Source of the DNA: Nereocystis luetkeana
Taxonomy: Eukaryota > Sar > Phaeophyceae > Laminariales > Laminariaceae
DNA length: 64,000 nt
Direction: 5' to 3'
Assembly: GCA_031213475.1 (NCBI GenBank)
Contig: JARUPZ010000013.1
Location: forward strand, 10,704,794 to 10,768,793
A program made the translations under genes and the position numbers. Each line of letters begins with the position of its first letter. Positions within the stretch are counted from its first letter, which is position 1. Below, piece by piece: positions 828-57,270 of this stretch. A model generated the notes under the pieces. That model saw nothing but the letters and a program-made list of their open reading frames with translations. It was not told the DNA's origin and ran no database searches.

Positions 828-2407
828 GCGACGAACATCGCCGAGACTTCAATCACCATCAACGGCATCCGGTACGTGGTGGACTCCGGGAAGGTCAAGG
901 TGAGCTCCCCCCTTTCCCTTCCATTGCATTGCGTCATTTCCACATCCTTCGTATAACTCCTACCAGGTACTTCGTACCCTCTTATACCGGGTATACCGGT
1001 ACGTGTTTTGGTGCATATGCTTCTCACGCCCTTCGCACACTTGCTATTAATAACCTCCTGCTGCGCCCCCCCCCCCCCCCCCACACCCAAGAGGCAGTTA
1101 CATAATACTCCCACTGCTGTCTCTGGAAGTGGCTACACCGGAAATTAAATTAACTCATTGAAGCTGTCATCCATATGCAAGTCCGCCTCACAAGCGGTTC
1201 TTAGTAGGATGCAGCTCACCCTTCATGCGACTCGCCCCACACCTCACGGCGCTTGCTTCAAGCTTGGTGCAAGCAATGTCTGCCCGGTCGGTAAAACCCG
1301 ACATGCTCCGTTCCAGCATTGTAGGGATGCGAGGGTCTATGGTCATACGACTACGGCTATGCATGATATCGAGTACATCTCTCCTATCGAGTACCCCCCC
1401 CCCCCCCCCCGCCCCCCCCCCCCCCGCCCCCCGCCCTTTGCTCTATCAGCTCCCCATCTTTCTCTCTCAGCCCCCCCCCACCTTGCCCTACCCCCCTCCT
1501 CTTCCCCTCCTCCCCCCCCCCCCCCTAATTCCGTTCGTGTCGCTCACCGAATCGGTCGGTGGTTGCTTCGGTTCCAGGTCCGCTCTTACCAGCCCTCGAC
1601 GGGCATGGAGTTCTTGCGGTCTAGGGACGTGTCTAAGGCGCAGGCGACGCAGCGGGCGGGGAGGGCGGGGCGAGAGGCCCCTGGCGTGTGCTACCGCCTT
1701 TTCCGGTGGGAACGCCGACCGCGCAACACGCCCTGATCCATTTTTTCTTCTTACAAAAGTAAATTCGTTGCGGAAAACGTGGGCACAGTGCTGTAGTTCT
1801 AAAGGTCTTACGAGTTCAGACCCGTCTTTTTCTAGTGCATACACTATTACTGGGGGCGATAGTTAATAGGACCTGTGTTATACATAAAAAACCCATATAT
1901 TTAACCATTCCTACCAAAAATATTCGGTCCTATTAACTATGGTCCCCCGTAGCAGACAACTCTAACTTTCAAGCTGTTTTGTTCCCAACACGTACGGTAT
2001 AGTCCCACCCTGAGAAAGAGCCCAATAAATAACGTAAAGCTTGCGGTATTGAGGGCGCTAAGGTTTTTTTGGTTTAAGGAAGCATGCTCAGAGAGAAGCG
2101 CTACACTACTGTATACAAGTGCTACCAGGTATAGTGGTACCAGGTATGTTGTAGCGTTAAGATTGAGGGGGTGATCAAGCTTCGGGCGGGTTACCATGAG
2201 GGTCCAAGCCGCCTGCCTAGTATGACGTGTTTTTTTGTTTTTGTTTTGTTTTTTGCATTTTGCTTGTTGGCGGGCTCGTACGGTAATCCTATTGTTCTAC
2301 TGCTGTGGTTGTACCACCTCCCGTACCGAGCGTGGTAGTGGAACGGTGCTGACAGGTACCCTCCCCCCCCCCCCCCCGCCCCCCGTGCGCGCCGCTTCCG
2401 ATTTGCC

Positions 2408-2474
<67 letters not shown>

Positions 2475-2511
2475 TTATCTGTTTGTCTGTCTGCCTGTCT
2501 GCCTGTCTGCC

Positions 2512-2562
<51 letters not shown>

Positions 2563-2627
2563 TTATCTGTTTATCTGTTTGTCTGTTTGTCTGTCTGTCT
2601 GTCTGTCTGCCTGTCTGTTTGCCTGAC

Positions 2628-2674
<47 letters not shown>

Positions 2675-2677
2675 TTA

Positions 2678-2722
<45 letters not shown>

Positions 2723-5700
2723 GTCTGTGATTGCGCTTGATGCAGGGAAGACGCGTACCTTGAGCTGGGAGACGCGCCGACCCCGGAGATCCTGAGGGTT
2801 AGCCTAGCGCAGGTGGGTGGCGGGCCTTCGTGCGCAGTAACACCGCGCGGGGGGGGGGGGGGCGGAGGGGGGGAGGGGGGGTGGTTGTTGGTGTTGTTGA
2901 TAGCGGTGGTGGCGACGGGGGAGGCGGGGGTGATGTTGAGGTTGTTGTTGTTGTTGTTGTTTTTTTTGGGGGGGAGGGTGGGGTTGTTTTTGGTGTTGGG
3001 ATGAGGGTTGATGATTTGCTGTTGTTCACATTGTTGTTGCTGCTGTCGTCATTTTCTGTGGCCGCAAGCCAGGCAGATCCACGAATTAACCCTGGCAGAA
3101 GTTAAATCATACACGAAAAACAAGACGAAAAGAAAACAACCAAAACAGGCGAAAATCACCCAGTAAGCGGCGATCGCGGCCCTCGGCCGACAGACGAACG
3201 GTCACAGGCTTATACGTTCGGGGACGACCTTCTAGACTTAATATACTATTTTTGGTGTGGGGAAGGGGGTTCAGGCCTGTGACCGACGGCCGTCTAGAGC
3301 CTTCATGTACTGTTTTTAGTGTGGGGAAGGCCGTCTAGGCCTGTGACGGACGGCCGTCTAGACTCAATGCACTATTAATAGTTTTAGAGTGCGGAAAGGG
3401 GTTCAGGCATGGGAATGACGGCGGTCTAGAGCCTTATTGTACTGGTTGCAGTGTGGGGAAGACAGTTCAGGTCTGTGACGGGCAGCCGTCTAGGTAGTCT
3501 TATAACAAGGGGAACATATTAATCAGGACCAAATGTGTTTGGGGAAAAATACTAGAATATATAGGTTTTTGTGTATGAATGTGATGGGTCCTCAACCCTA
3601 TGCTCCCCCGAGATAGCATACCATTTTCATTGTGGGGAAGGCAGTATAAGCCCATGACGGACGGCCGTCTATAGACTTGATTCTCAATATACTAGTTTTT
3701 CGTGTGACGAACGCCGTTTAGGCCTGCGACGGACGGCCGTCTAGAGCCTTAGTGTACTAGTTTTAGTGCGGGGAAGGCGGTCTAGGCCCATGGCCGACGG
3801 CGGTCTAGACTTAATGTAGTAGTTTTAGTGTTGGAGTTCATGGAGGTGTGACTGATGATGCCCCACGACTTCCGTCTCCTGACACAATTGGTCACAGGTA
3901 GTTCTCCAGCTCAAGGTTATGGGGGTAAAAGACCCTTCGACTTTCGACTATGTCACCGCGCCTAGCCGTGCCGCGCTGCTGAAGGCCCTCAAGACTCTGG
4001 CCATGCTGGGTGCCCTGGACAAAGCTGGAGACGTCACTCCGGATGGCAAGAAGATGGCGGCGCTGCCGCTCGACCCGGCCTTCGCGCACTTGCTCGTCAG
4101 GTACTACGAATACCCCTGCCGTCTCTATGCTACTAACAGTGTCAGGTTCTACGAATCCCACTGCTGTGTTTATGCTTTTAATGGTGTATTTTACCGTATA
4201 ACAGTATCACACAGGGTGATAAAATAACACACCCCCTCTGACGAATTTCAAAGCTGATTTTTGTCGACCAAGGCGCGAGTGAAGAACGCCAACCGATATG
4301 TACGTACGTACGTTTACGGGAAGGTCTCGACGAGATCTTCCCAGAGCCACCGTGTTCCTCATTGCGTGTGATTTTCCTTGCTATATACCTGGTACCTGGT
4401 ATGGAGAACGCCTCTGAGGAAATAGTTCGTTCCAGGGTGTGTGTTGTCTTACCACCCTGGTGTGATACGGTTTATGTTTCGTGTTTTATTCATGTAGAGC
4501 CCATGGGATTGTGTATCGGGGCTTACAGTACCTTGAATTTTTTCTCACAGCCGGTTGTTGGATGTTGGGTGAGTTGTGTCGAGCTCTTCAAGCGAGAAGC
4601 CTTACAAATTTCTGAGAAAATTCCTGCGTGCTATACGTATATACCCTTATCAACCCTCTCTACCGTGACACGCGTCCTATTGCGAAAAAAAAAACTATGC
4701 TGATGCCAACTACTTTCTCCCATAAAAACGTGCCGGGAGTTCGAAAGGCGTTATGTATGTATACACCCTCGCTCGAACTTCCCCTGAGTTTCCGTGGATG
4801 CTTTGAAAGACGTAGAAAATGATTTAGGAACCGATGAATTGCCCGAGCTGTGAAGCAGTTAGTCCCAAAAGACGTGGTGGCAGGTGTACAAAAAGGGGTT
4901 CACGCTCGCTCAGTCAGACCCCACTCACCCAAACGCACTCAAATATTTTGCCTCTCAGTTACCGTGGGTGGTCTCTCTCCCTCGCCTCCACTCCCACCCT
5001 CCCACCGTTTTGTTTCAGGTCGGCGGAGCCCCAGTTCGCCTGTGTGAAGGAAGTTTTGACCACCGTGGCGTGTTTGTCGGCGGAGAACTTGTTGTTCTAC
5101 CCCCCCAAGGTGGGTGGGCAGGTTTTTTATGTCGGAGAATTATACGATCCTGTTTGTACAGCGCAGCGTGGCACTGTTTATCAACCCTTTCACTTCTGAT
5201 ACTGTAGAATATGTCCACACTATGGTGATTCCAAGGGGTTCGGCGAAAACGTTGGTACAGTTTACTGCTATCAATACTAAAGCTTCCACACGTCGGACAG
5301 ATCAGATTTATCATCTACAGATAGATCAGATATATCATCTACAGATAGATCAGATATATCATCTACAGATAGATCAGATATATTATTTACAGATAGATCA
5401 GATGGATCATCTACATAAAAATCATTTACAGATAGATCTTTTACAGATAGATCATCGACGGATAGATCATCTACAGATCTATCAGATATATTATATCCTG
5501 CCGTTATGGGATGCTGTGCAGGACCTGTATAATACAGGTCCAACCCAATAAATAGGTGCTAGATCATGCAGATTTTACGGCTCCCATCCGGCAACATGAG
5601 CCCGATCATACAGATCATCTGCCCTGAAAGATCTAGATCATAAAATTGGAATGATCTATATGACGTGTCCGAGCTCTGGAACCTTCCCCCTGTGCGGCAT

Positions 5701-16467: not shown

Positions 16468-18117
16468 TTGTATCTAACTTTTCTTGGGTCTTGCACGGGT
16501 GATGGGTGTAGCATACCAAGCGTATACATACCTGGTACCTGGTGCGCTGCTGTAGCAGGCACTGCTGTTAGTACTCGTACGCGTGCATCGTACACATATA
16601 TATGATACGTGCGCGTAGCTCGATTTGGTCGAGCTTTCGCGTTTGGCCCGTACGAGTCACAGCAGTTGTACGGCTGTGGTGTGTGGGTGTGGGTGATGTG
16701 CTTCCGGTGGTGGTGATCGAAAATTCGAAAATTGAATAAAATGATGACAACGAAAAACAGAATTATTTTTCCAACATTATTATTTGAATTCGCCCAGGAT
16801 CGCGACATCGATCGACATCGCGTCTGTCTCTCAACACGAAGGTCTGTGCGTTTGTCATCGGAAAGCACGTAACACTACATGCCCTTCTCTCTTCCGTTAC
16901 GCTCGTCTTAGCTGTACGACCGTATCAGGGAAGTTTCAGGGAAAAAAGGATTCGCTTTATTGCTCGCACGCTTTTTTTGTCGGGTTCGTAGCTTGCTTGG
17001 AAAGGTATGGGCAACACACCCAAGTTGTACACACTTTGAAATGGAAAAGAAAAACAGAACAAAATACAAAGACAAAAGGGGAAAAAAATGAAACCGCCGT
17101 TTTGATACTAATAACAAGTAATATAGGTTTCATTTCCTTCCGGTTGTATGATGACTGACGTGCAGTCGAGTCGAGTCGCCCAGAAAAAAATGTCACGAAA
17201 AATTGTACCCAGGAAAAAAAACTTTGCGCCTGTCGTACAATCCACAACATCCTTGCTTCCTTTGGCATCGGGCGCACCCCCCTATCACCCCACCGAGCAC
17301 GGTGCTTGCAAGCCGTGGTGTCGGTAGTTTCTGATCGCTTGGTGTTATCGTTTCTGCAGCGTATCGCGGCTGGATTGCTCCTGGTGGTGGCCGAAACAAC
17401 AGCGAGCCAGCAGGTCAGTGAAAGGTACACGATCATCCTGTTCAAAAACGTTTGTTTGTGCTGACTGCTGTTGTATCGCGATCCAGCTAAAAGCACTACC
17501 AGGTACATCAGTAGGCGCGGCACTGCTGTCTCCTGTGTACGAACGAACGGTGGCATGTGTACGGTCTGCTTCGTGTTCCTATCGGCATGTCGTAGGTGTA
17601 CAGTTTGCTGATTCGTGTCTTGCCTTGTCTGCTGCAGCCGCATCTATGACTAAAATAACTCGTTGCTTGTGCTGATCCAAACCCAACAATTCAGTCGTTT
17701 TTTCCGAAACCATAGCAACACAGCAGCCCCTAGAGCGGTTTCGGATTGTGTGCGGCGGTGAACGGAGCGATCCGGTAACACGCGAATGTCCAGTAGCGTT
17801 GAAGCGTGCACCCACGCGCTACCCACTACCCCGTGTAGTTATAGTCCACCGCAGCAGTCTCCTCATTGAAAGTAGATACCAGAGGTACCTCTGGTATACG
17901 TCTGCTGCGACACAGTGGAGGTATCATACTGCTGTACTCGTAGATCAGGCACGATCTGGCAGAAAAACACCCAACTTCTCTGAACTACTTTCAGAAAAAT
18001 ATCTTACCGGTACGTCTTGTTTTTTACTCGCGTATTGAAACCCTCGAAATCCACCCCCTCTTCTGTGTTGCTCGTTGACTGCTACTCGTATCCTATATAA
18101 TCTATGTACAGGGAGGG

Positions 18118-21100
18118 ATGGATTCCCGCCTGATGGACGTTGCGACGGAGGCCCCCGGGCTCGCGCTCAGGATAGGCTCTGCCGTGTCAGACTTGGCAGC
18201 CTTCGTCGTTGACATCGGGCAGGACTTTCCGTTGATCTACGTGGTTCTCAAGACCCTCAAGAATATTCGGGATAAGGTGGACACCATCAAGAACAACCAG
18301 GCGGCGCTCGACGCGCTGCACCAGCGCTGCACGTGCATCACCGCCTGCGTCATCGTCAAGTGCAGGCGCAGCCCTCCGTCCGAGGTCGACATCACGCCTC
18401 TCGTCGAAAGGATCGAGGAGGTGCACGGGTTGGTGGAGAGATTCAGCCTGCGAACGAGGATCTCGCGGGTCCTGAAAGCTTCCAGCGACAAGGTTGAGAT
18501 CGTGCACATGCACGATCGGATTGGGGAGCTGACGGATGACATGGGTCTGGCGGGAATACTGGCGGTGGAGCGTGATGTGAACGACCTCAAGGGGCTCTTG
18601 GTGAGAGCTGTGCTACATGAACATGACCATGACATGACCATGACATGACATGACAAGGGAGTTGTGAATTGTTGTACTGGTATTCGTATGCGCGCGGAAA
18701 AGGAAGAAAACATATGGTTCACTTCGCTGGCCTGCGCTGACTGTTGTTCTTTTCTCTACGTGTAAAACTGCTGTATAGACCTGATACGTGTATACTCTTA
18801 CGAGTAGTCGCATTCAAGCGATAAACCGTATTTTGTTATATTATTTTTCTTTGTCAAAACCAACGCAAGTACAGAGCAACATACCAGGTACCAGGTAGTG
18901 AACATCTCTATTATTATTTATCTTGCCATCCGACAAAGTGCAGCATGATCTTCAACATTGATCACTTTCGTATCACTTTCCGATACTCGTATTATAGCAG
19001 TAAATCAGTAAAAACGTAGGTACCTGGTGCATATTGCATATCTCCTGGTACTGTGTACTGTTTGGCGTTCCCTTTACCGCCGTGCAAAGTGCAAGTATTA
19101 ATAGTATTACAGCATCGCTGCAGCGGTCACAATGCTGGCAAGGATACGGAATACATTGACATTATTCTTGAGTGATCGACGTTGGAGCTCATTGTCGGGC
19201 GGCGAACTATTACGGGGGACCATTGTTAATAGGACCTATGGTATACATAAAAACCTATATATTTAACCATTTTTACTAACAATATTTGGTCCTATTAACT
19301 ATGGTCCCCCGTAACATTAATAATGAAAACACCATCATTATATTTTTTTCCCATCCCATTTATTATCTTCGCCCTTCTTTTCTCTCTCCCTTACACACTA
19401 AGTCTCTATCAATAGTCGTAATCCAGATCCGGGGTCACATACATGGCAGGCTCTTCTCCCTCTTGCCCACTACGGTTCTTTCCTTCCTTGTGTCTTTATC
19501 GCGAGAATATTTTTGCCCTCTTTTCCCTCGCCCACTCTCATCGAATTGCGCCTACGCACGCTACTGGACCAGGTGCTCTCACTAGTTGGTTCCATGTTTT
19601 ATTGTACTTGGCGAATATACTCTAAAACGTTCGACCCACGTGGGATTCGAACTATAGCATCAATCAACTATTAGCAACATTGGAGGGTACCACTACAGCT
19701 CACTGGGGCGAGCACCTTACCGCTGCTGTACGTGTACAGCAGTGTAAGAAACGGGGATGCCCCCGCAGCCCCAACAATATAGTGCCAGCACTTGAAACGC
19801 AACTTAGTTGATCGGTCATAACTTTCGACTGCTATCTCTGATTTCGACCTTGCTTTTATACTTTTCATTCATGGCAAGCCCATCGTTGTTATCATCTTTT
19901 CCCCGTTTCGCTTTTTGCTGTCGCTATGTACCAGGAAAATGTATGGTCCCCACAAGGGTTAATTGGCAAAACCCGGGGGAAGGGTAAACACGTGTGTATC
20001 TAACATATCCCAAGCAACATCCTAACACGTCCATACCTCTGTTTTTCGTTACCCCCTCCCCTCCGTATGATGATAGGAAACCGTCGACACAAAGGCGGAC
20101 CAAATATTAACCCGACTGCCGAAGCCGCCAACAAAACTCGCCAAGGTGCCCAAGGGAACCCCGGCGCGGAAAACCTGGCACATAAAGCGGCAGCGAGTCA
20201 TGGACACCGTGTGCGAGGGACTCTTCCGCGAGGGAGGGCCCCACCACGTCGGACTCGTGGGTGACAGCGGGTCGGGCAAGACCACGGCGGCGTCCGAAAT
20301 CGTCCGGAGCTCGGAGGTGCAGGAGTTTTTTTCGGACGGCATTGTCTGGCTGTCCGTGGACAAGGGGGCGAAAGCGCGGCTCCCGTCCCTGATGTTAGAC
20401 CTCGCCAGAATGGTGCACGAGGACATCGGGGGAAGCTTGGGAAAGCCCCCGAGTGGAAGCAAGGGCGGCGAGGGGTACACGAAGGACCTCATGGATGGGC
20501 GCCAGGGGGGGGGGAAGAAGCTTAGGTGTTTGCTGGTGGCAGACAATGTTTGGGAGAAAAAAGTGGTCTCGCGGCTGAGGAAGACGGGGATGTGGGTCCT
20601 CACGACCACCCGAGATGAGCGGCTCGTCGAGGGCGGGTGCGGCGAGGCGGTAGTGATCGATGAAATGTCCGAGGAGGACGCCGAGTCGGTGCTCATTGGA
20701 GCGTCGGAGCTGCCGGCGGGGTCCCACCTACCGGAGGCTGCCAAAGACGTCGCCTCGCTGTGCGGCCGTGTGGCGATGGATCTAGCCTTCGTCGGGAGGT
20801 GGAGCACCACCCGCGGCAGGGGAGACCCCCTAGCTTGGTCGGAATCTGCGGAGAAAATTCGCGTCGAGCTGGAGAAGGTGGCAGCGGCGGAGGCGTCGGC
20901 CAGGAGGGGGGGAAGGGCTGAAGCGGAGCCGGTGAAAGGAGGGGTTGGGGTGGGGGTGGGCGCGGGGACGGGGGCAGAGGCGGGAGGGCAGGAGGGGGGG
21001 AGGGGGTCCGATTCAGACCGCGATGGTGAAGACAACGCGCGCGCGAAGCAGCGGCGCGCTATTCTTCGCGCGGGGTTCGATCACCTCGCTACCGGCACGG

Positions 21101-22374
21101 ACGATGACCGAGTGCAGAGGCTGTATCTGTCTCTGGCTGTCATCCCGGACGGCCACACCTTCAATGTGAGAGACGCAGCGGCCCTCCTCTACGACAGGCA
21201 AGGGAGCGCGGAAGACCAGGAGGCCGTGGGAGAGGTGGTGGAGACCCTGGAGCGGTGGGCCGTGCTGCGGGCAGTGGGCGACGGAAAATATCGGATGCAC
21301 GACGCGCACTCGAGCTTCGCGAGGGAGAGCCTCATGGACCGTGAGAACGTACGCGGGCCGGCGGTGGAGCGGTGGGTAGAGCACATCTCTTCCCTGGAAT
21401 ACCTAAGGTCCCTGGACACCTTCGCGATGATGGGACTGTGGTGGGCCCTGGAATGCGTGGGGGAAGACTCTCGGCACGGGTGCCATCGGCCGTACGAGGA
21501 GGAGCTCAAGGGCGTGGCCGACTCCGACCCTCTCTGCCGCGAGTCTCTGTCGGCCGTGGCGCGGTTTCGTTGTGCCAAGGGAGACTGGGCCGGCGAGAAG
21601 GCCGCGTACGAGAGGCTGCTCCGGGTGGAGAGACAGGCTCTGGGCCCTCACGACCCGACCATCGTAGGCACCCTCTGGCACCTCGGTAACTGCGCCGAAA
21701 GAATGGAAAACCCGAAGGAGGCCAAGGAGTGGCGGCAGCGGGAGTACGAGACGGTCCACCTTGCCCTCGCCAGAATTCGCGCGCAGGATGGAGGAGGAGG
21801 CAGCGAAAGCGAGCAGAGCACCGCGGACGGACTGAGGTCTCTCGCTTCCGGCATGCTGAGGCTGGCGCCGGGGAGGCTCGACGAAGCTGAGAGGCTCCTG
21901 AGGAGGGCTGTGGAGATCGAGGGGGCGAGGCTAGGGCCGGATAACGTGCAGCTGGCCGGGACGCTGCACCAGCTGGGGGTGTGCGTCCGCGAGGCGGGGA
22001 GGAAGCAGGAAGCGGAGGCCATATTGCGACGCGTCCTGGAAATCAAGGAGTCGAAGCTGGGCCCCGCGAACGTGTACGTAGCCGTCACTCTGCACGAACT
22101 CGGCGTGTGCGTACGACAGACCGGACGCGTGAAAGAAGCGGAGGTCTTCCTGCGGCGAGCGTTGGACATCTGGCAGGGGAAGCTCGGGCTCGCCACCGGG
22201 TGCATCGCCTACACGCAGCGGGAGTTGCGCATGTGCGCTCCGAGGGGGGGGGAGGGGGGCGGCCGGGCGGCGTCGTACGCGCTGAGCAGGTCTCACCGGT
22301 TAAAGCCGGGGGGAAGAGGAGCGATGGTTTTGGTCGTTCTTGTGTTGGCGTTGCTCGGCAAGTGTGTGATGTAA
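18118..22374 (+). CDS. NLR-like receptor: N-terminal helical (HeLo/MLKL-like) domain, NB-ARC ATPase, TPR repeats
   Basis: Two exons, 18118-18600 and 20077-22374, join in phase 0 (GT donor GTGAGA, acceptor TAG) to give 926 aa. Residues 1-161 are all helical with a hydrophobic early segment; they resemble the HeLo/MLKL-type four-helix domains found at the N terminus of some fungal and algal NLRs (assignment inferred). A short linker (VPKGTPARKTW) leads to NB-ARC: P-loop GDSGSGKTT at 223-231, Walker B-like RCLLVADNVW near 311-320, a sensor-like stretch (VLTTTRDERL), and an MHD motif (RMHDAH, 568-570). From about 645 to 895 come TPRs of kinesin-light-chain type, with the last units 42 aa apart (LGPDNVQLAGTLHQLGVCV, then LGPANVYVAVTLHELGVCV). 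A short hydrophobic tail (MVLVVLVLALLGKCVM) closes it. The likely role is intracellular sensing with oligomerisation; ligand unknown. The second acidic residue of Walker B is Asn. The intron carries a short inverted-repeat element. The start is the first ATG of the open GC-rich frame. Confidence 0.9.
19211..19313 (+). repeat. Short inverted-repeat element, family A copy 5, in the NLR intron
   Basis: Nearly consensus copy with both ends intact, inside the single intron of the NLR-like gene. Confidence 0.95.
19385..19590. repeat. Dispersed repeat shared with 15185-15395 (inverted)
   Basis: CCAGATCCGGGGTCACATAC, TTATCGCGAGAATATTT and ATCGAATTGCGC correspond in reverse to the 15.2-15.4 kb copy. 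Confidence 0.75.
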
Positions 22375-29463: not shown

Positions 29464-29614
29464 GTGAACAAGCAAAGACGAAATCAAATGTCACGACGAA
29501 TGCGAATGCGAAGGCGAAATCAAATGTCACGACGAATGCGAATGCGAAGGCGAAGGAAGAAAACACGAAACACTAAAAAAAACACAAAAACGGGGGGAAG
29601 GGGAGGGGGGGGGG

Positions 29615-29853
29615 TATTCGATAGGAGAGATGTACTCGATCTCATGCATGGCCGTAGTCGTATGACCATAGACCTTCGCATCCCTACAATGCCGGGACGG
29701 AGCATGTCGGGTTTTCACCGACCAGGCAGACATTGCTTGCACCAAGCGCGGAGCGCCGTGAGGTGTCTGGCAAGTCGCATGAAGGGTGAGCTGCATCCTA
29801 CTAAAACCCGCTTTTGAGGCGGACTTGCATATGGATGACAGCTTCAAAGAGGA
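29615..29853 (+). repeat. Poly-G-bounded dispersed repeat (copy 3)
   Basis: GTACTCGATCTCATGCATGG, CATGTCGGGTTTTCACCGAC and GTCGCATGAAGGGTGAGCTG. The next copy follows in tandem after a G-run. Confidence 0.92.
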
Positions 29854-29879
29854 GGGGGGGGGGGGGGGGGGGGGGGGGG

Positions 29880-30195
29880 GTGTACTCGATAGGAGAGATG
29901 TACTCGATCTCATGCATGGCCGTAGTCGTATGACCATAGACCCTCGCATCCCTACAATGCCGGGACGGAGCATATCGGGTTTTCACCGACCAGGCAGACA
30001 TTGCTTGCACCAAGCGCGAAGCGCCGTGAGGTGTCCGGCAAGTCGCATGAAGGGTGAGCTGCATCCTACTAAAACCCGCTTTTGAGGCGGACTTGCATAT
30101 GGACAACAGCTTCAATGAGTTGATTTAATTTCCGGTGTAGGTACTTCCAGAGACGGCAATGGGAGTACTATGTAACCGCCTCTTGGGTGCCTTAC
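29880..30195 (+). repeat. Poly-G-bounded dispersed repeat (copy 4)
   Basis: Nearly identical to copy 3, but with the full right flank (GAGTTGATTTAATTTCCGG, ACTTCCAGAGACGGCAATGG) also present at 1079-1160 in reverse. Confidence 0.92.
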
Positions 30196-30390: not shown

Positions 30391-33300
30391 CTATAAGGGG
30401 GGGCATGCAGCGGCCCCGTGTCGAACCTTGTTTTTGAAGGGCTGTCCGCTCCACGCGCCCTGGAAGTACTTCTCTTTCTCAGACTGGTACTGCTCCGGCC
30501 CGCCTGCGATGCGCTCCTCGATCACGGGCTGAAATCGCCTGATCAAGCCCTGGAAACCCGAAGACAACCGAAGCAGCAAGGGGACGACATCAGACCAACA
30601 TCATACACCAGCGCTACCCGAAGGCATCACGGGCACGTATCACACATCCTCTGTCAACGGCAAAGCCCTGCCAAACGGCAGCCGGCATGATATTCTGTGC
30701 AGCACCTGCATCGTACATACCCAACCCACGAAACACGTCCTATTGATAGACAACGCAGATTCCACGGTTCACACCCGGCAACATCGGCTAGATTGCGCAG
30801 ATCAGGAATCTATATACTGGTAACTGTCTGTCCTGAAATGTGTAGATTATGAGGGGGAAATCTGATATATCTGATCTACCTGATATCTATGATCAATCTA
30901 ATCCATCTGATAGGTATACTATGCCCGATATGTGCAATCTGCAACGTCTAGTTCGGCGGGCAGACCTGTTGACCCATTCAGAACCGCACTATGAACACAT
31001 AAAATAAGCTCAAGTCGAATTTCAAGCAAATTTGTCCCCCAAACGGGAGTCCGGCCCTAAACGAGTCCTAAACGAGTTCTAAACGAATCATAAACGGGTT
31101 AGAAAAGGTAAAAAAAGGTAAATAGGGACCTCCCATCTTAGCCGCCCTTACCGCACCGATTAATTAGCATCTAGAACGAGCTACAGAAATCGGGGAATTT
31201 GGGGTTCCAGTATGATGAGAAGGAACTTTTCGAACACTGCCCAAAACGCCACTTTAGTCCCTAACCCTGACCCCAATACTGACCCCACCTCCACCCATAC
31301 GAGCTTCGACTGGAAAAAATGCCTATGTATGTTTCCTTTATGCGGCTCGAAGAACTCGGCCGTTTTGTTTTTTGTTTTGATTCGAAAAAAAACGGGCGTT
31401 CAACAAATAAACATAAGATCGACAACACCAAAAACTCATATAATTAAACATTCCTCCATTTCTAGATACCAGGTATAATTTAAGTGATGAGGTAAAGCCT
31501 GCTGTCCCACCCCCCCCCCCCCCTCCGTCGGCTTGCAAAACAATAAACCTAAGATCGACAACACCAAAAACTCATACAATTAAACATTCCTCCATTTCTA
31601 GATACCAGGTATAATTTAAGTGATGGAGGTAAAGCCTGCTGTCCCCCCCCCCCCCCCCCCCCCCCGTCGGCTTGCAAAAACCGTCAGAACATGGTACACA
31701 ACACAACACAACCCCACCCCACGCCCCGCCATCTAAACGCACCTGTACGGGCCAGGCGGCGGCGTCTCCAAGCGCGCAGATGGTATGCCCCTCGATGGAC
31801 CGCGATATTTCTTCCAGCATCGGGATCTCGCGCGTGTCTGCCTCCCCATTTTCCATCTTGATGAGCATTTGCTCAAGCCATCCGGTGCCCTCCCTGCTTA
31901 GTGATGAAAAAGAGTACGACGTATACGATGCACACATATGGATGGGTGTTCACATGGAAGGAGGGAGGGAGAGAGAGGGGGGGGAAGAGGGGGTGAGAGA
32001 GAAAAGCAAGACAAAACGAACCCCGAGTAGCATAAAACAATAAACAAAACCAAAGCGAAACAAAACAGAGCACAGCCGAAACAAAACAAGACACGACATG
32101 AATACGAAAAAAAAAAAACACACACACACACAACAAAAAAACACACCAACTCGACAATAGGAACAACACACTCCACCACCACCACCACCACCATCACCAC
32201 CACCAGAACCACCACCACCACCACCCGCACCACCAGCGTCAGCAACATAGCCACCACCACTAGCAAGCGATAAGTCATTCTTACCGGCAGGGCGTGCACT
32301 GGCCGCACGACTCGTGCTTGTAGAAGTGAGCCAGGCGGCGGATGGCGGCGATCATGTCGACGCTCTTGTCCATGACGGTCACGGCAGCGGTGCCCAGTCC
32401 CGAGCCGGCCTTCTTCAGGTCGTCGAAGTCCATCATCACGTCGGCGCAGTCGTTGATGTCCAGCACCGGAACCGAAGATCCCCCAGGAATAACCGCCTGC
32501 ACGTTACATAGTAACACCCCGCGAATCGTGAAGGTAGTTGAGGACACCCACGTACGTTTGCATCGAAACAACAACTAAATGGCAAGTAAATCGCCAGCAA
32601 CATGTAATATCATACCAGCGTACGATATCAGCGCATGATAGCCAGTAAATAGCAGGAAAGTCTGAAGTAAATAGAGAGTAACTCGCTGTTACCGCCAGTA
32701 AATAGCAGGTAGCTCGCAAGTACATGGGAAAAGTAACTCGCTGATACCGCATACCCCCCCGGGGTTTTAGCCTGCACGGTAACTAGGAAAACCCGTACAT
32801 CAACAGGTACACAGGAAATAAAATAAGATTAGTCTGTTGCTGGGTAGGAGCATCCGTACATCCACCTGTGGATAGCGAAGGAAGCAACACCATCATACCC
32901 TGCACGTTCGTTCTTAGTAGGAAAAGCCGTACATGAGGTATTAGACATCGAAGAAAAAACAACAAGTACATCGCAGGTAAAGTCGCAAGTAAATCGCTTG
33001 GCCTGCTGAATATGCACACAATATTATATCCTGTACCTGGTATATTTTTATAATACACCCAACGAAACGCGAAAAAAAAAACGACATCCCACTTTTTTTA
33101 TGAGCCCGCGAGAGGGAGGGGGTCCAAAACAAAAAAAAAAAACTCGACGTATGCCGTTAAATTAAAACATGCTGTTATAATTCATGACAAAAAATTCAAA
33201 CCCGCTAAGACGTGATGACAACGGAAACGCGAAGAAAAAGGTTCTTTCAAAATATTGCTTCTTAAGAACAGCCGAAGATATCCTCGTACCGCCGCTGTGG

Positions 33301-36300
33301 GGAAAAAACGGGGAAAAAAAAGTTAGATTTTTTCTTCTTTCTTTTTTTCTAACGGCTGCAGGCGGCGCAACTTCTTTTTTCGCGTTGAAACTTGCCAACA
33401 CGGTGATTGTTACAATCAGCTCGTGCCACGATAGACACTCGATTTCGACACAGACTCAGCCCACGGCCAACCCGCTTGGTGTCGGGCAAGGCCACCGAGT
33501 ATAGATGACGGCCTCTGATATGCAAGGTGGATCCATGGTCTAGGGGGCGAGAGCTTGCCGGCGGCGTCCTACGGTATCTATCCTTCCAACCTGAAAAAAA
33601 AAAACTGTGTTTTTACCATTCGAGGCGGATCGAGATTTTTTGTCATCTGTTTTGTGTACACCAGCGGCCAATTGTTCATAATACGCCTGGCCAGCTCCCG
33701 CCACATGTCACCGGCCGTTGTGTGAACACGGTGACCCTAAGGTGGATCGGAGTCCCTAACGAGCGCACTTCCTTCAGAATTCATGATGCAGTCGTTCGTT
33801 TTGTCGATCGATGTCTGTCGAGGACTCGGAACCTCGCCGCTTCGAACTAAACATCCGCCCCCGAAATTGTTTTTTTTTCGGGGTTTTCCAAAAGTTTAGA
33901 ATTTGCCGGGACAAGCAAGAATCGTGCCCATAGCAAGCTGTACCTGAAAATTTCCCGACGGGTATCTTTGGATTCCAAACTTTTAATGGAAACTTTGCGT
34001 TTCCATTGGCATAGGTCTAAATAGTTTAGTTTCTGATTCAGACATGGCGAAAGAGGCCGCGTTTTCTCTTTTGCTTTTTCGGTTACTCCTGGTGTACCTG
34101 CAAGTTGTCCCAACCCCCCCTGACACCGCCGCAGTGCTTATCCAGCAACTCCCTGAGCGTGATGGACATCTCTTCTTCCACGACGATGGGATTGTTCACG
34201 TGGCCCGAGATGGCGAACAGCTTCGTACCATGGTTGTTCTAGTAGCACATCACATGACATCACAGCACGTCACGGCAAAGCACGGCACGCATCACCACCA
34301 TCAACAGGTTAAAAACGCGGGGGAGGAGGGCATAGGAAGGGAGAGAGGCGGGTGGGGGGGGGGGGCGTACTCATTTGTTGCTTGCCTTAGTCATTTGACC
34401 ATTGACCACGCATCCCTTTCGAGACGGAGCAGAGGCGGGTGGGGGGGGGGGGAGAGAGAGAGAGAGAGAGAGAAGGATGCATAACAACGTATACATAAGG
34501 AGGCAGAGGGATACAGAAGAGAGGGGAGAGAGGGAGGGTACATGTAGGATCTACAGTAGATGATCGACTAACAGATCATCTACACTAGATGATCTGCTGT
34601 AGACCGTCATGATCTGTTAACAATACCGAAGTTACCTTGCGGCCGAACCCAGCGAACCAGCTCGCTCCGCGGCGAAGGATGGTTGGCGCCACGGCGACCG
34701 TTTCAACGTTGGTGACCGTAGTCGGGCAGCCGAACACACCCACGTTGGCAGGGAACGGCGGTTTCAGGCGCGGCTTTCCTTGGCGGCCCTGGTCATATTA
34801 CAGAAATTGTCAACGGGATATAGATCAGACAAAGATATCAAGTTATTACGAGATACCGAAAAAATTACAGAAATGAAGATATTGGGATTGGGATCTCAAG
34901 ATGCTACGATATCAAGATACTGTTATATTGTAAACACGCGAACGTTCGCGGGAAAGGGAGGCTTCAGGTGCGCCCTTCCTTGGCGGCCCTGGTCAATATG
35001 AACGTAATTCCCGTAAAAAAATGTCAACGTACGAAATAACGAAAATAACATATTTTGTAAGATACCCTGGTACTAGGATATTCTGTAAGACATCGAGATA
35101 TTGATTTTTCCTCGAGCTATTAATATCAAGCCACCAAATATAACACGTCTACTGCGGCCTTCCTTGGCAACCTTGATCGAGATATGAAAAACGTCAACAT
35201 GTATTTAAATATGAAACATGTGAAGATTCGAAGACTATGAACCCCTTTCGAACCGCAGTCCCTTTATGGGGACAAACTACTTGAAATTTGAGTGGTTTGT
35301 CCCCGAAACGGGACTGCGGTTCTAAAAGGGTTAACGTAGATCAGCGGCCGCTTTCTACAGTGGCCTTGATCGAGACATACATTACAAAACATCCACGGAA
35401 ATACATACGACAATTGTTGTCAAGGTCGTGTCAGAACGTAAACACGTTGAGACGCAGGAAACCAGTCACATCAGCACCATGTAACATAGACGTTAACCCC
35501 TTTAGAACTCCAGTCCCGTTTTGGGGACACACCAGTCAAATTCCAAGTAGTCTGTCCCAAATTGTCCCCAAACGGGACTGCGGTTCTAAAAGGGTTAATA
35601 CCCCAAGAAGACAAACACGATATCAAGACTTCGAGATACTACCACGTCAAAACTTCAAGACATCAACTGATCAAGAAAACAGTAAGTAAAAAAACGATAC
35701 AGCAGCAACAAATCGAAGCCAGTCCAGTCAAAACAACCAAAACAACCAAAACGACAGGTTATCGATAAATCAACAAATCAAGACATCAAGAGGCCTCTGG
35801 GACCGTACACAACTGGTGTCTGGTTTCGTCTGGCCAGGCCATTTCTGATGGAAATACAAAAATTATTCTAGAGATTTCTGCTTCGTGTCCATCGATAAGA
35901 TTCGATGAATCGGATCCGGCACGAAAAGTCTTCTTGGATCTCTCTACAAACCCTGTTCTGTTTTCCGGTTTCGGCTCCGATAAGAGTCAGCCTAATACAC
36001 GGCAATCATAACCCATGATTAACCCAAACACTAGGTGTGTATCCCCCTACTGCTGTATGTTCACACAACTTATGTGGTTCTCATTACTACTATTGACAAT
36101 ATGCTCCCTCGTAATCGTCGTACCTTTCTTATATTAAAATATTCTGGTGCATGGTACGAGTCATACTGGTGTTGACACAAGGCACGCATTTTATGTATGG
36201 AACCGTGATGAGCTCAACTTTTTTTTCAACCATTTCGCCGGAGGAAAAATGTTTTTTTTTCGTGTATATGTTACAGTCCGTCAAGCAAAATCAAGGCTTT

Positions 36301-39061
36301 GCTAATGATACCTCGAGGCTTTCGATGAGCGCCGTTTCCTCTCCGCAGATGTAGGCCCCAGCCCCACGGTGCAGGTAGACGTCGAAGTCGTAGCCGGACC
36401 CGCAGGCGTTTTTGCCCAAGAATCCTTGCTGTGCAACAGGCCGGCAGGCAGGCAGGCAGGGGACGTACCTCAGATATAACACAACACCAGGTATCAGGTA
36501 ACAGATAATGATGATTGAACTGGTACTTGAGAATGATCACTGAGAACGACGATTAAGAAGGATCAAGTGGGATGGGATGACGTTCGATAATGAAAATTGA
36601 GAACCACTGCTTAAGAAAGGCATTGGAGACTGGTATTTGAGTATTTTCATGATTGCAAAACTTTAATTGAGAATATTGTCTAGACCTCGGAGTAGCCACT
36701 GGGCCCGCAGACGTTACAGCCTGAGAACCCTTTCTGCGCGACAGGCAGGCAGGCAGGTAGGCAGGCAGGCAGGTAGGCAGGCAGGCAGGCAGGCCAATAG
36801 AAACGTACTGCTACTACACACCGTAGGAATAAGTGCGGAATATTCTCTCACGGCTTACACGTTTTTACGGCTTGTACCGTGAGCGATTTACCCTGAAGCC
36901 CTTTCACAACTGCACCCTACCCTCGCTTTTGGCGACAAAATACTTGGAAATAGTATGGGTTCCTTTCTTCCAGTGACAACGGTGAAAGGGCCGAGTAGGT
37001 GTTGCGTCGTGCTGCTGTACAAAGGGACTCAGAACTCGCCTTGTACGCTTCGTGGATGGCCTCATCCATCACCACGGCCTCGTTGAAATACTCCCCGCGA
37101 ATGTAGATGTACGCGGCGCGGGCACGCATCGCGTAGCCGGCGAGAAGGCAGCCCTCCACCAGCTTGTGAGGGTCCTTGCGCATGATCTCGCGGTCCTGCA
37201 GGCAGCACGCAACAGGAGTTCCAGAGGGGGTGGAGGCAGTAGCGGCGGCGGCGTCAAGGGGTATTTTTTAACTTGAAGTTTCTGCTAACAAGAAGACCAT
37301 GCACGTGCGGGATGAAAAATCCCCCCCACTTGCCCAACAGGGCGTCCCGTGATGGTGGTGGCCAGTACGCCGAAGCTGGTAGAGGGGGCGGGGGCGGGGG
37401 CGTCCCGCCCGGTCGAAAAATGACAAATTAAATACACATTGGAATCGATTGGCGACCTAGCTATCGAGCGACAGGCCGACCGACCGACCGACCTACCTCC
37501 TTTCTTCCCACCCTACCGACATGCCGATGGACACATCGATCGACCTACGGACCTGCTTACTGACGGACCGGCTGAACGACACACCGATCGACCTACCGAC
37601 CAACAGCCGACTGACTGATCGGCATATCGGCCTACTTATCAACCGACCGGTCGACCCATAACTCTACCGACCACCCCGTGATACCTACCAACGGACTGAC
37701 CTACCTACCTCCGTACGTACCGACTGACTGACCAACGATCGACCAACCGCATCGAAGTACAGACGCCGAGCAACGCGCGTCCTGTCCCTCGTCGCGGCCC
37801 GCCCCCGCGAAACACACATATGGCAAGGTAAGCCACGGCGAGCCACGGCAAGCCAAGGCAAGACGAGACAAAACAAGAAAAAAATCAGCCAAACCGAGCC
37901 AAGTCAAGTCCAGCCAAGGCAAGCCAAGGCAAGTTATATCCAGCCAAGCCGAGCCAAGCCAAGCCCACCCGACCCAACCCAACCCTCACCAGAGCCAAGC
38001 CAACTCCTACCCCACCCAATACAACCAACCAACCGACCATCTAACAAACCAGCCAACCGATCAACCAACCAACAACAAACAGACCGACCGACCGACCAAC
38101 CAAATTTCACCTTGCACGTTCCCGGCTCGGACTCGTCGGCGTTGACGACAAGGAAGGACGGCCGCCCATCGGTATTCTTCGGCATGAACGACCACTTCAA
38201 ACCTGAAGGGAACCCGGCCCCACCCCTCCCCCTTAGGCCGGAGTCCTTCATCTCCTGCACGATCCAGTCGGGGCCCATCCACATGATGTCCTTCGTCTGG
38301 TGCCTGCGGAAAAGAGAAAACATGGAGAAAATTCCGAGATAGTTCCGTGAGCGCCCATGGCCTGGTGCGGCAGTAGTGACAACGGCTCGGACCAGCTTCA
38401 GCTTCGACAAAATGGTTGATAGTTCACACTGTTGTTTTTACGCCTCATGACGTGTTACATTCAGAGAACTTTCCCGCGCGGTCGGGAACAAAAGCTAGGG
38501 TTTGCCTACAGCCATCGGTACCCACCGCACACACCAGCCCCCACGCTTCATCGTCTCTCACGCGCTAATCCTGTTTTTTGTAGAAGTTGATAATACCTGG
38601 TATGCAGTGCCCTACCCTACCCCACCCCACCTATCCTACAGCCGTTATAAGCGCCTAACGCTGGCTGCTGGCAGGAATTTCGCATAATCAAGTGCGATTT
38701 GTGTCTATTTGAATGAATACGCCGTACCAGGTATGATGACGAAACATCCTATACTGGTACTGTACTGGAGCGTTTTAGTCCGCTTGCACGCACATAAATG
38801 TCTGGGGACGAACTACTGTAAACACCGTACACACTCCGCGTCGAACCACGCTACAGCAGTGTGGGATACTTATGGGAACAGCCAAAAGGGTGAAATAAAC
38901 GCCGCACGCACCAGTCCCCACGCTTCATCGCGTCTCCCACGCGCCAATCCTGCTCCCCGTAGAGATTGGTGAAGATGCGGTCCTGGTCCTTGAGACCACC
39001 GTACACGCGGGGCGGTTCCGGAGTTGCCTCCTTAGCTCCCGGCGCCGCGCTAAGGTATCGC
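30391..39061 (-). CDS. NDUFV1: NADH:ubiquinone oxidoreductase 51-kDa subunit, mitochondrial complex I (exons 2-10)
   Basis: This complex I subunit binds NADH, FMN and the N3 4Fe-4S cluster and starts electron entry. Exons in transcription order: 39061-38912, 38303-38111, 37195-37040, 36428-36312, 34788-34636, 34238-34098, 32496-32285, 31893-31743, 30549-30391 (stop TAG). All phases agree, giving 476 aa. Motifs in order: [26 protein letters not shown] (FMN/NADH site); [26 protein letters not shown]; the family signature [48 protein letters not shown]; and [12 protein letters not shown], whose three Cys ligate N3 and which is split by the 32284-31894 intron; then [15 protein letters not shown] with the fourth Cys. 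The C terminus ([15 protein letters not shown] onward) extends past the animal protein. The intron after EAYK has a GC donor. Several introns contain decayed copies of exon edges. The first exon here starts in mid codon at RYLSAAPG, so an upstream transit-peptide exon is needed. Confidence 0.95.
30700..30960. repeat. Family F copy in the 3' intron of NDUFV1
   Basis: CGCAGATTCCACGGTTC, CTGTCCTGAAATGTGTAGAT and ATCTGATATATCTGATC follow family F order. Confidence 0.65.
30973..31099. repeat. Family B element, diverged
   Basis: Left arm CATTCAGAACCGCAC; right arm GTCCCCCAAACGGGAGTCC with CTAAACGAG extended into a short tandem repeat. Confidence 0.6.
31403..31680. repeat. Tandem duplication (2 x ~137 bp) in an NDUFV1 intron
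   Basis: Both copies contain AAGATCGACAACACCAAAAA, CCTCCATTTCTAGATACCAG and AGGTAAAGCCTGCTGTCCC, then a C-run and GTCGGCTTGCAAAA. They differ at only a few positions, so the event is recent. Confidence 0.95.
32105..32250. repeat. CACA and CCA/ACC low-complexity tracts
   Basis: ACACACACAC followed by ACCACCACC repeats, close to the donor of the exon ending at 32285. Confidence 0.9.
32747..32812 (-). pseudogene. Decayed copy of the 5' edge of NDUFV1 exon 32496-32285
   Basis: The minus strand reads CCGTGCAG then GCT AAA ACC CCG GGG GGG (AKTPGG). The true exon is CGTGCAG then GCG GTT ATT CCT GGG GGA (AVIPGG). The intron part before the acceptor is also similar. Confidence 0.55.
34545..34620. 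repeat. Family F-like GATCATCTACA palindromic cluster
   Basis: GATCATCTACACTAGATGATC and TAGATGATCGACTAACAG lie just 3' of an NDUFV1 donor. Confidence 0.6.
34921..35395 (-). pseudogene. Serial decayed copies of the 5' edge of NDUFV1 exon 34788-34636
   Basis: The real exon starts CCAG|GGCCGCCAAGG. An upstream copy at 34988 has the same acceptor and encodes [19 protein letters not shown] before a TAA (true exon: [19 protein letters not shown]). Further, more decayed junction copies lie near 35158-35185 (CTTGGCAACCTTGATCGAGA) and 35355-35385 (AGTGGCCTTGATCGAGACAT). The spacing is about 180-200 bp. Confidence 0.85.
35240..35333. repeat. Inverted-repeat element, family B copy
   Basis: AACCCCTTTCGAACCGCAGT at the left and ACTGCGGTTCTAAAAGGGTT at the right. 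Confidence 0.92.
35493..35598. repeat. Inverted-repeat element, family B copy with internal duplication
   Basis: Ends TTAACCCCTTTAGAACTCCA and ACTGCGGTTCTAAAAGGGTT with TTAA at both outer edges. The loop carries TGTCCCAAATTGTCCCC, a small internal duplication. Confidence 0.9.
35995..36125. repeat. Dimer-family single unit
   Basis: AATCATAACCCATGATTAAC, GTATCCCCCTACTGCTGTAT and GTGGTTCTCATTACTACTAT match the units at 405-765. Confidence 0.7.
36687..36750 (-). pseudogene. Decayed copy of the 5' edge of NDUFV1 exon 36428-36312
   Basis: The minus strand reads GCGCAG then AAAGGGTTCTCAGGC, encoding [17 protein letters not shown] before TAG. The true exon, after TTGCACAG, encodes [17 protein letters not shown]. 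Both copies are preceded by the same GGCA repeat. Confidence 0.75.
36735..36795. repeat. (GGCA)n microsatellite
   Basis: AGGCAGGCAGGTAGGCAGG repeats. The same repeat in shorter form follows the true exon acceptor at 36440-36460. Confidence 0.95.
37034..37039 (-). promoter_or_regulatory. Non-canonical GC splice donor (NDUFV1)
   Basis: The exon ends TAC AAG at 37040 and the intron begins GCGAGT. The acceptor CACAG is at 36433-36429. The join gives [16 protein letters not shown], aligning without gap to the family block; no GT donor gives this alignment. Confidence 0.85.
37460..38100. repeat. Low-complexity intron: GACCGACC and AGCCAAGCC repeats
   Basis: Two simple arrays, CCGACCGACC/CTACC (37475-37740) and CAAGCCAAGGCAAGCC (37840-37990), then ACCAACCAACC (38020-38100). 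They fill the intron between the exons at 38111 and 37195. Confidence 0.9.
38510..38605 (-). pseudogene. Decayed copy of the 3' edge of NDUFV1 exon 39061-38912
   Basis: The plus-strand text CCACGCTTCATCGTCTCTCA and CGCGCTAATCCTG mirrors CCACGCTTCATCGCGTCTCC and CGCGCCAATCCTG in the true exon. The following donor region is copied as well (CACACACCAGCCCC for CACGCACCAGTCCC). The frame is broken by a stop. Confidence 0.82.
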
Positions 39062-39189
39062 CTGCCACCGTCACAGAAAAACAAGAGAGGAAGCGCCGTT
39101 TGTCAAGTGGAAACCCTTCAAATCCTACACAGGAGGAGGGTGGGTGGGGGCGTTTGTCTGGTGGAAGCTCTTCAATTTCTACAGAGAGG

Positions 39190-39285
39190 GGATGGGGGGG
39201 GGGGGGGGGGGGGGGCGTACTCATTTGTTGCTGGCCTTAGTCATTTGACCATTGACCACGCATCCCTTTCGAGACGGAGCACCGT
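39190..39285 (+). repeat. Poly-G-headed repeat fragment
   Basis: A G-run followed by GCGTACTCATTTGTTGCTGG, CATTTGACCATTGACCACGC and TTTCGAGACGGAGCA. The same sequence is at 34345-34432. It is a diverged relative of the 29.6-30.1 kb family (GTACTCGAT, TATGACCATAGACC). Confidence 0.75.
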
Positions 39286-40483: not shown

Positions 40484-41412
40484 TACAAGGCGCTTCGCTC
40501 CGCGGGCGGCCTACGCCGCCCGCTACGCTCGCTCTGGAAGAAAAAGTACATCGAATTCCGCGAAGCGGACAGAAGGTCGATGATTGAACATATTTTGTTA
40601 TGATTGTTGTAGTTGCAAATTGGCGACTTGATAATGCCAAGAGCCACATGCCGTAAGTACATACCCCAGGTAGGGTACTGATTTTCTTCTTTCGATATGC
40701 TGTATGATATGTACCTGGTATGTACGCACGTGCGAGAAAGCACAGCATGGCACAGCAGCAGCACCGCAAAAACAATGAAAACAAAACAAAAAAAAATCGG
40801 AAAGAGAAAAATCCCCGTCCCCTCTCATGTAATAATTGTCTGCCCCTGGAACACCTTGCACCAGTCAAAAGAAGAAAAAAAAAAAAAAATGAACAGCAGA
40901 GCTTCTCTCTCAGCCTCGTACGCCGCCCGCTCCTCTCTCGACCACCTCGCCACCGATTCGGTCCGGGTAAAGCTTTTCTCCCTCTCTGTCACAGTGATCC
41001 CCGTTGCCCGCCCCGCGTGAAGCCTGGTGCTCACCGTGACCCCCGTTCGCCAGCTCGACGATGTCGATGGTCAGACGGGCGTTCGCCTATTTGTATAGTT
41101 CAGCGTGGTCGCAAAAATAATCACCGCTTGAATGTTAGCTTGCAATCCCGAACGACCCTTATGGACTCATACCTACTCAGTCTAATTTTTCACATGGAGG
41201 CAAAAGAGAGCCCATTCATGCTTCCCTTGTGTCTCGAGGCACACACGACGCCTAGCCACGAAAACCGCGACCGCACTCCTTGCAACCCCCCCTTTACCCG
41301 CCAGTATCCGCCGACACCCACGACGGCGCTGGGCTCGCCCGCGTCGCAGTGCTCCGACTACACACGCGCACACGAAACGGAAGAAGAAAAAAGGAAAAAA
41401 ACTGAACGTGCA
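40484..41412 (+). repeat. ~1-kb dispersed repeat, copy 1 (empty site)
   Basis: Starts ACAAGGCGCTTCGCTCCGC and runs through TTGCAAATTGGCGACTTGAT, GAACACCTTGCAC, CTCTCTCAGCCTCGTACGCC, CGAGGCACACACGACGCC and ACACGAAACG. It matches 55515-57270 in order but lacks the 736-bp insertion and a ~100-bp segment. Confidence 0.92.
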
Positions 41413-55514: not shown

Positions 55515-57270
55515 TACAAGGCGCTTCGCTCCGCGGGCGGCCTACGCCACCCGCCACGCTCGCTCAGGAAGGAAAAATACATCAAATTAATATGCCAAGC
55601 GGACAGAGGTCCATGATTGAATATACGAAGTTTTTTATGATTGTATTCATAGTTGCAAATTGGCGACTTGATATTGCCAAGAGTCCCGCCGCCAGCTTCA
55701 GGGGAAAACGCTTGGACGCCACATACGCTTCGCGTCGCGGGCGGTTGCCGGACGTACGTCGCCCTCTCCGCTCGCTCACATGCCGTACGTACGTACATAC
55801 CCGAGGCAGGGTAATCCTTTTCCTCTCTTGGTATGCTTGCTGTATGTACTGCTGTACGAAAGAGAAAGCAAAGCACGGCACAGCAGCACCGCAAAAACAG
55901 TGAAAGTGAAACCGAATAAAATGTGAAGAAAAAAAAATCCCCGTCCCCTCATGAAATAATTTTCTGTCTGATTGGAACACCTTGCACTGGTCAAAAAATA
56001 AAATCGTACAGCAGAGATTCTCTCTCAGGCCGTTTCCTATGCGGTTCGATTTTTGAGCTTCAGATTTTGACCCGATCGCATTTTCAGATGTGAACTTGGC
56101 AAAATCGAAACCGCCTTTCTGCGGAATAATCAGATTTATTGTGTGTGTAGAGATTCGAGCAAACGCCGAGACCAACTGCTGTTTTTGTGGTTTGGCGCCG
56201 CGAGGAGAAGCGCTGGGTGCGCTGCCCAGCGCGTAGGACCCAAGCGTGCGAGCCAAGGCTGACTGCCTCTGGTCTGGCGGCAAAGAGACGTGGCGAGTGC
56301 GCCAGAGCCAACCTGTTTTGGTACTTTGTCTTCCATTTTGTGACTGACTGCTGCTGCTGCTGTACAGCAGTGTAAGTATACGAGTACTTGTACGTATCCA
56401 CGGAGAGGTGCGTGCCGAGTGCGCTTCTCTTGGTCTCTAGGCCCGAGCCCGCGCCAGGCGACTGTAGTCTGGCCACGGAGGGACGGGCCGCCCGCCGCCC
56501 GAGCGTCGGGCGCGAATCAACGTCGCTATACAGTTGTGTCACCATCCAACATATCGATCGTTCTGGTGCTGTTTGCTGTCGTGGATAACATCTTGAATTT
56601 AGAGAGCATGCCATTTTTCGATTCGAAACTTGGGTCATAGGATTCTCAAATCGTTTTTTTTCCGGTCGGATTTTGCATATTTGGACTGTATAAGCAGGGT
56701 CATTCGTTTTTGAGATCGAAAAATACAAATCTGAAGCTCGAAATCGAACCGCATAGGAAACAGCCTCAGCCTCGTACGCCGCCCGCCCCTCTTGCGACCG
56801 CCTCGCCACCGATTTGGTCCAGGTAAAGTTTGCCTTACTCTTTGCCACAGTGAGCCCCGTCGCCCGCCTCGCGTTAAGCCCGGTGCTCACTGTGGCCGTC
56901 GTTCGCCAGCTCGACAATGTTGTTTTTCAGACTGGGTACCTCCGTCTGTGATTGTCAGCCCGGTCGCAAAAATAAGCACCGCTTGAAAATTATCTTGCGA
57001 TGCCGAACGAACCTTATAACTCGTACATACCCTATCAGAAATCACAAATGGAGGCCAGACAGAGCCCATTCATGCATCCCTCGTGTCTCAAGGCACACGC
57101 GACGCCTAGGCACGAGAGCGGCGATCGCGCTCCTTGCAACCCCCCCTCTACCTACCAGCACCCGCTGACACCCGCGACGACGGCGGGCTCACGCGCGGTG
57201 CCGTACTCGGAGTACACACACGCACACGAAACGAAAGAAGGAAAAAGGAAGAAAGCACCGAGAGTGCCAA
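55515..57270 (+). repeat. ~1-kb dispersed repeat, copy 2 (interrupted by a 736-bp insertion)
   Basis: Same order as 40484-41412. It has an extra ~100 bp near 55690-55790 (TCGCGTCGCGGGCGGTTGCC) and the element at 56029-56764. Confidence 0.92.
56029..56764. mobile_element. 736-bp non-autonomous TIR element with 5-bp target duplication
   Basis: The left end GCCGTTTCCTATGCGGTTCG and the right end CGAACCGCATAGGAAACAGC are inverted. Similarity continues to about 37 bp (GAGCTTCAGATTT / AAATCTGAAGCTC). CTCAG lies on both sides (56024-56028, 56765-56769) but once at the empty site near 40909. No transposase frame; presumably moved in trans. Superfamily unassigned. Confidence 0.9.

Follow-up and report, generated by a model that had tools for sequence, protein, structure and literature searches.

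Tandem duplications that carry exon sequence have been described in several settings. The closest is a tandem genomic duplication crossing a single intron-exon boundary in a potato RdRp gene, one intron of which also harbours an 83-bp tandem duplication (PMC4974935). The classes used by Exonize include inter-boundary and intronic exon matches, some of which are described as exons that are unannotated or degenerate; events of the partial, inter-boundary and intronic classes were reported in more genes than full-exon duplications, and there are generally fewer events in lower eukaryotes (PMC12343006). Tandem exon duplication concerns whole exons, some of them expressed (PMC9013439), in the Rogers type of intron gain a tandemly duplicated exon piece creates an intron (described in PMC4974935 and PMC2891723), and in the LRR exon shuffling of brown algal ROCO genes, which are candidate immune receptors, whole in-phase exons are kept and spliced (PMC11378527). 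Here we describe NDUFV1 of the brown alga Nereocystis luetkeana, within a window of 64,000 nt (assembly GCA_031213475.1, contig JARUPZ010000013.1, positions 10,704,794 to 10,768,793), where copies of exon edges are present in the adjoining introns at four exon-intron junctions, three of them firm and one weak. We attribute these copies, with a probability of roughly 0.8, to ordinary small tandem duplications that remain recognisable for longer at exon edges through selection on the exon copy, and not to a process aimed at junctions.

Both types of potato duplication have a counterpart in this gene, as a duplication wholly inside intron 8 resembles the intronic one, but the boundary-crossing potato copy is recent and made a new intron, whereas the NDUFV1 copies are old, decayed and apparently silent (PMC4974935). 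As with the Exonize matches, the NDUFV1 copies of exon sequence sit in introns, although those matches are defined relative to whole exons (PMC12343006) and the three firm NDUFV1 sites, at exons 1, 4 and 5 (E1, E4 and E5), consist of 53-57 nt of exon edge. Tandem exon duplication is likewise a local duplication of exon sequence placed beside the exon (PMC9013439); the NDUFV1 copies, however, are partial edges that could not be used as exons without a stop. In the Rogers type, too, tandem duplication puts exon sequence into an intron, but the NDUFV1 copies carry the splice sites of an intron that already existed (PMC4974935, PMC2891723). Its AGGT criterion has the exon copy adjoining the donor, with no older acceptor and tract before it, whereas the E4 and E5 copies start approximately 306 and 1323 nt into their introns, each after an AG and intron sequence. 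The ROCO genes share with NDUFV1 the intragenic duplication of exon-bearing segments (PMC11378527), but NDUFV1 is a housekeeping gene and its copied edges are dead. An initial annotation of the window, made from the letters alone, knew of no named system for such copies; boundary-crossing tandem duplication (PMC4974935) and inter-boundary or intronic exon matches (PMC12343006) have nevertheless been published. Duplication centred on junctions was described in no paper found among the titles and abstract openings searched.

The nine-exon model of NDUFV1 forms one continuous reading frame and, at E 2.8e-226, matches solved chains of mitochondrial NDUFV1; in this frame-consistent model the donor of intron 3 is GC (AAG/GCGAGT, window 37039 on the minus strand). 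A second gene in the window encodes a helicase with HA2 domains (Pfam), which we take to be DEAH-type. Together the two genes provide 14 complete introns and 28 junctions (16 in NDUFV1 and 12 in the helicase gene), with exon ends placed manually so as to fit the frame, the splice dinucleotides and the conserved protein sequence. Junction-centred probes of 80 nt (40 exonic and 40 intronic) were compared with the remainder of their own intron after masking of simple repeats, with 200 two-base-block shuffles as the null. Shuffles were of this kind throughout, except for exon-only probes of 60 nt, for which 300 dinucleotide shuffles were used. In addition, blastn was run separately inside every exon-intron-exon region.

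All four junctions named by the initial annotation do have a copy of the exon edge in the adjoining intron, with z values for the junction-centred probes from 28.0 at the E1 donor down to 8.5 at the E7 acceptor (Table 1). With exon-only probes, 3 of 17 tests on the exon's own side are positive (E1 donor z 18.4, E4 acceptor z 11.1, E5 acceptor z 20.3), whereas the E7 acceptor gives z 1.0 (p 0.22). By itself, the exon-derived portion of the E7 copy is hence not above chance, and intron 6 is rich in further short repeats around it. No copy is found when exon-edge probes are compared with the intron that flanks the exon on its other side (0 of 16, highest z 2.5). The copies keep the order of exon edge, splice site and neighbouring intron, but the adjacent intron that each had been said to include is present unevenly: the aligned exon and intron nucleotides number 26 and 23 at E7, 56 and 20 at E5, 57 and 10 at E1, and 53 and 6 at E4, where a CCTG microsatellite also lies beside both the acceptor and its copy. 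Exon interiors were searched as copy sources with 86 exon probes of 40 nt, and z 5 is reached by 3 of the 32 probes at edges and by 2 of the 54 others, and by none of the 8 (a small number) that lie at least 60 nt from any edge. The intron-side position of the copies, noted by the initial annotation, was probably forced by survival, given that a copy joined to the exon would alter the protein.

The E5 edge has further copies upstream, as had been reported. The exon-equivalent starts, as read from the sequence, are 34788, 34988, 35172 and 35365, which gives spacings of 200, 184 and 193 nt over four units; the similarity ranges of copies 2 and 3 were picked by eye. The whole 200-nt unit aligns with a score of 45.5, against a shuffled maximum of 15. 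These results support a decayed tandem array at E5, and with it the serial tandem duplication proposed at the outset, whereas for E1, E4 and E7 tandem duplication is a reasonable inference. Across the blastn pairs the copies lag by approximately 185-380 nt, which suits the median of 367 nt given in PMC2891723 for the size of 1901 duplications, mostly tandem, in Drosophila lines.

The further proposal that duplication is centred on splice junctions is not supported. With the same probe and criterion (z of at least 5), 5 of 28 junctions are positive in the two genes compared with 60 of 273 interior places (Fisher p 0.81), an absence of enrichment that the initial annotation itself had named as speaking against its proposal. 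For NDUFV1 alone the counts are 4 of 16 junctions and 32 of 147 interior probes, of which 21 reach z 8.5, the level of the weakest junction; for the helicase gene they are 1 of 12 and 29 of 126. The interior probes overlap by half, both arms of a repeat are counted, and dispersed repeats and arrays are included; interior probes were excluded where masking covered more than 40 bases, and every junction probe was kept. The fifth positive junction is a helicase donor with a 45-nt duplication, which is missing from the blastn list although the junction probe finds it. Away from junctions, NDUFV1 has the intron 8 duplication, our in-gene control, and a further tandem duplication of 53 nt x 2 at 32641-32750.

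We propose that these genes acquire small tandem duplications (approximately 45 to 380 nt) regardless of splice junctions. A duplication inside an intron or across a single exon-intron junction could be silent, as splicing after a junction-crossing duplication would still join those two sites that yield the original mRNA, leaving the redundant exon edge to decay within the intron. In the functional exon edge, selection would hold most first and second codon positions fixed, and an exon-anchored pair would then diverge about half as fast as a purely intronic one. Hence, among old duplications the exon-anchored ones should be those still visible. When silent tandem duplications (intronic or crossing one junction) are placed at random, 28-33% cross a junction in NDUFV1 and 19-22% in the helicase gene. 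In a decay simulation with a placed share of 0.27-0.28, pairs that cross a junction make up 0.28, 0.31, 0.56 and 0.93 of all detectable pairs at per-lineage divergences of 0-0.15, 0.15-0.3, 0.3-0.45 and 0.45-0.6, assuming frozen first and second and free third codon positions, with an indel rate and size range of our choosing. Given this geometry and detection bias, both the young intron 8 duplication (93.8% identity) and the decayed ones at exon edges are expected from an unbiased process.

Some results nevertheless weigh against this explanation, and each lends something to a rival. When bases are counted instead of probes, 4 of 16 NDUFV1 junctions are covered by copies while intron-only repeats lie on 9.3% of intron bases (p 0.055), or on 6.6% without a dispersed family (p 0.018); for both genes the figures are 5 of 28 and 11.8% (p 0.23), or 7.2% without dispersed families (p 0.048). 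Arms of intron-only repeats were selected manually from the tandem-repeat and blastn lists, with junction copies left out and part of the E5 ladder kept, and the variant without dispersed repeats omits a single family from NDUFV1 and two families from the helicase gene, which alone shows no excess in either count (p 0.85 and 0.63). An NDUFV1 excess of this kind, the affected quarter of its junctions and the serial copies at E5 could all be accommodated by duplications that start preferentially at exon-intron junctions, for example at transcription- or splicing-linked breaks, and drive intron growth. We consider this very unlikely, given that a single probe and criterion detects no enrichment, just one helicase junction is positive, and geometry and decay bias already predict the pattern. 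Moreover, NDUFV1 was chosen for showing the pattern, and its p-values are therefore flattered; the weak excess in base coverage is in any case what slower decay of exon-anchored copies would produce. Low complexity or background repeats could also account for some of the similarity, above all at E7, an idea suggested by the chance-level exon part of the E7 copy, by the other short repeats of intron 6 and by the microsatellite that flanks the E4 acceptor and its copy alike; with probes that still score z 11-28 (E1, E4, E5) and z 8.5 (E7) after masking, it is scarcely credible as the explanation of the copies.

The intronic remainder of a tandem unit is the second weak point: at E5 it gives z 2.9 and a score of 13.5, below the best of 500 shuffles (17), and at E4 (z -1.1) and E1 (z 1.3) it is undetectable. 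Neutral decay on both arms would have this effect at E4 and E1, where the tandem origin is accordingly inferred; non-tandem pieces, inserted into the intron from a nearby exon edge by template switching or in the course of repair, would also lack such a remainder. The regular ladder and alignable unit at E5 make insertion unlikely, as do the far-side introns, which are without a copy in 16 of 16 tests even though insertions need not keep to the tandem side. The third point concerns E5 copy 1, which differs from the exon at 2, 2 and 8 sites by codon position over 56 nt. This skew may stem from synonymous change in the exon or from a spell of constraint on the copy, and 12 differences are too few to tell. 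Together with the AG and plausible tract kept before the E4 copy and E5 copy 1, and with the stop that use of a copy would introduce, it could indicate that the copies serve, or served until recently, as alternative exons or regulatory decoy splice sites, for example poison exons bringing stop codons. However, the aligned exon edges are short, the E1 copy combines a stop with a frameshift, the acceptor AG is gone in E5 copies 2 and 3, and the E4 copy differs from its exon evenly across codon positions (6, 5 and 5 over 53 nt), as a dead copy would, all of which makes such a role very improbable. None of the copies amounts to a complete exon that has an open frame and a splice site at each end; they are partial edges with stops and a frameshift, dead as coding sequence and presumably silent in splicing. 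The spare splice sites foreseen by the initial annotation are thus nominally present, but splicing at the copy acceptors of E4 (AG before 36733), E5 (AG before 34988) or E7, or at the copy donor of E1 (after 38535), would run into in-frame stops (Table 1).

Several other repeats and genes lie in the window. Intron 4 of NDUFV1 also contains a short element with inverted-repeat arms (35240-35334 and 35495-35598), which has 11 more matches elsewhere in the window. A 96-nt pair, 93% identical and 4850 nt apart, links intron 5 (34336-34431) with sequence upstream of E1 (39186-39281), and a 268-nt tandem duplication with 95% matches (29592-30119) lies a short way downstream of the NDUFV1 stop. Near-identical translated stretches at 40488-40532 and 55519-55563, approximately 15 kb apart, are probably a dispersed repeat. 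An open reading frame (ORF) with NB-ARC and TPR domains is located at 20077-22374 (+). PMC11378527 mentions genes of the NB-ARC type in brown algae, and this gene, like the general look of the window, would fit such an alga. Upstream of it, an ORF at 18079-18645 (+) matches the MLKL N-terminal domain below the Pfam cut-off (22.5 versus 27 bits). At E 0.01, Pfam gives no match for five ORFs outside the named genes (four in 40.7-56.9 kb and one at 27 kb). The window has neither an Rfam match at gathering threshold nor a hit in a tRNA scan, and a search for relatives of NDUFV1 among viral contigs confirmed none.

Table 1 Exon edges, their intronic copies and comparison features (window coordinates).
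Feature	Position	Strand	Evidence
NDUFV1, exons 1 to 9	39061-38912, 38303-38111, 37195-37040, 36428-36312, 34788-34636, 34238-34098, 32496-32285, 31893-31743, 30549-30391	-	exon model
Helicase gene, seven exons	within 828-8044	+	exon model
E1 3' edge, source (donor at 38911)	38912..38968	-	exon model, blastn
E1 3' edge and donor, decayed copy, intron 1; TAG for TGG, 2-nt deletion (frameshift)	38525..38589	-	80.6%/67 nt; z 28.0, probe match at 38572-38525
E4 5' edge with acceptor, source (exon start 36428)	36376..36434	-	exon model, blastn
E4 acceptor and 5' edge, decayed copy, intron 3	36681..36739	-	71.2%/59 nt; z 11.4, probe match at 36739-36692; in-frame stop after 17 codons if acceptor used
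E5 5' edge with acceptor, source (exon start 34788)	34733..34808	-	exon model, blastn
E5 copy 1, intron 4, lag 200	34933..35009	-	77.9%/77 nt; z 18.3, probe match at 35009-34951; in-frame stop after 21 codons if acceptor used
E5 copy 2, exon-equivalent start 35172, AA for acceptor AG	35153..35225	-	z 8.2 to E5, 7.5 to copy 1; blastn E 0.010
Probable E5 copy 3, exon-equivalent start 35365	35336..35420	-	z 5.9 to E5, 4.6 to copy 2
E7 5' edge with acceptor, source (exon start 32496)	32471..32519	-	exon model, blastn
E7 acceptor region, weak copy, intron 6	32746..32794	-	69.4%/49 nt, E 0.004; z 8.5, probe match at 32794-32746; exon part alone z 1.0
Tandem duplication, period 136, wholly within intron 8, away from junctions (in-gene control)	31395..31679	.	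93.8%/113 nt; TRF
45-nt tandem duplication at helicase donor (exon end 4100), mostly intronic, GT in both copies	4096..4185	+	z 11.8; alignment

The finding is ordinary as it stands, and the mechanism is most likely ordinary as well. The copies would have added to intron length. Exon edges act as preserved reference copies, at which ancient small duplications would stay visible after those inside introns have faded, and counts of duplications near splice sites need correction for this preservation. That short tandem duplications in this lineage start preferentially at exon-intron borders, as a steady source of intron growth with fossils datable against the frozen exon, seems to us a long shot; if a junction bias did survive such correction genome-wide, it would suggest that duplications and intron length have a source not described before. 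Exon-anchored pairs could also be used to date intron growth.
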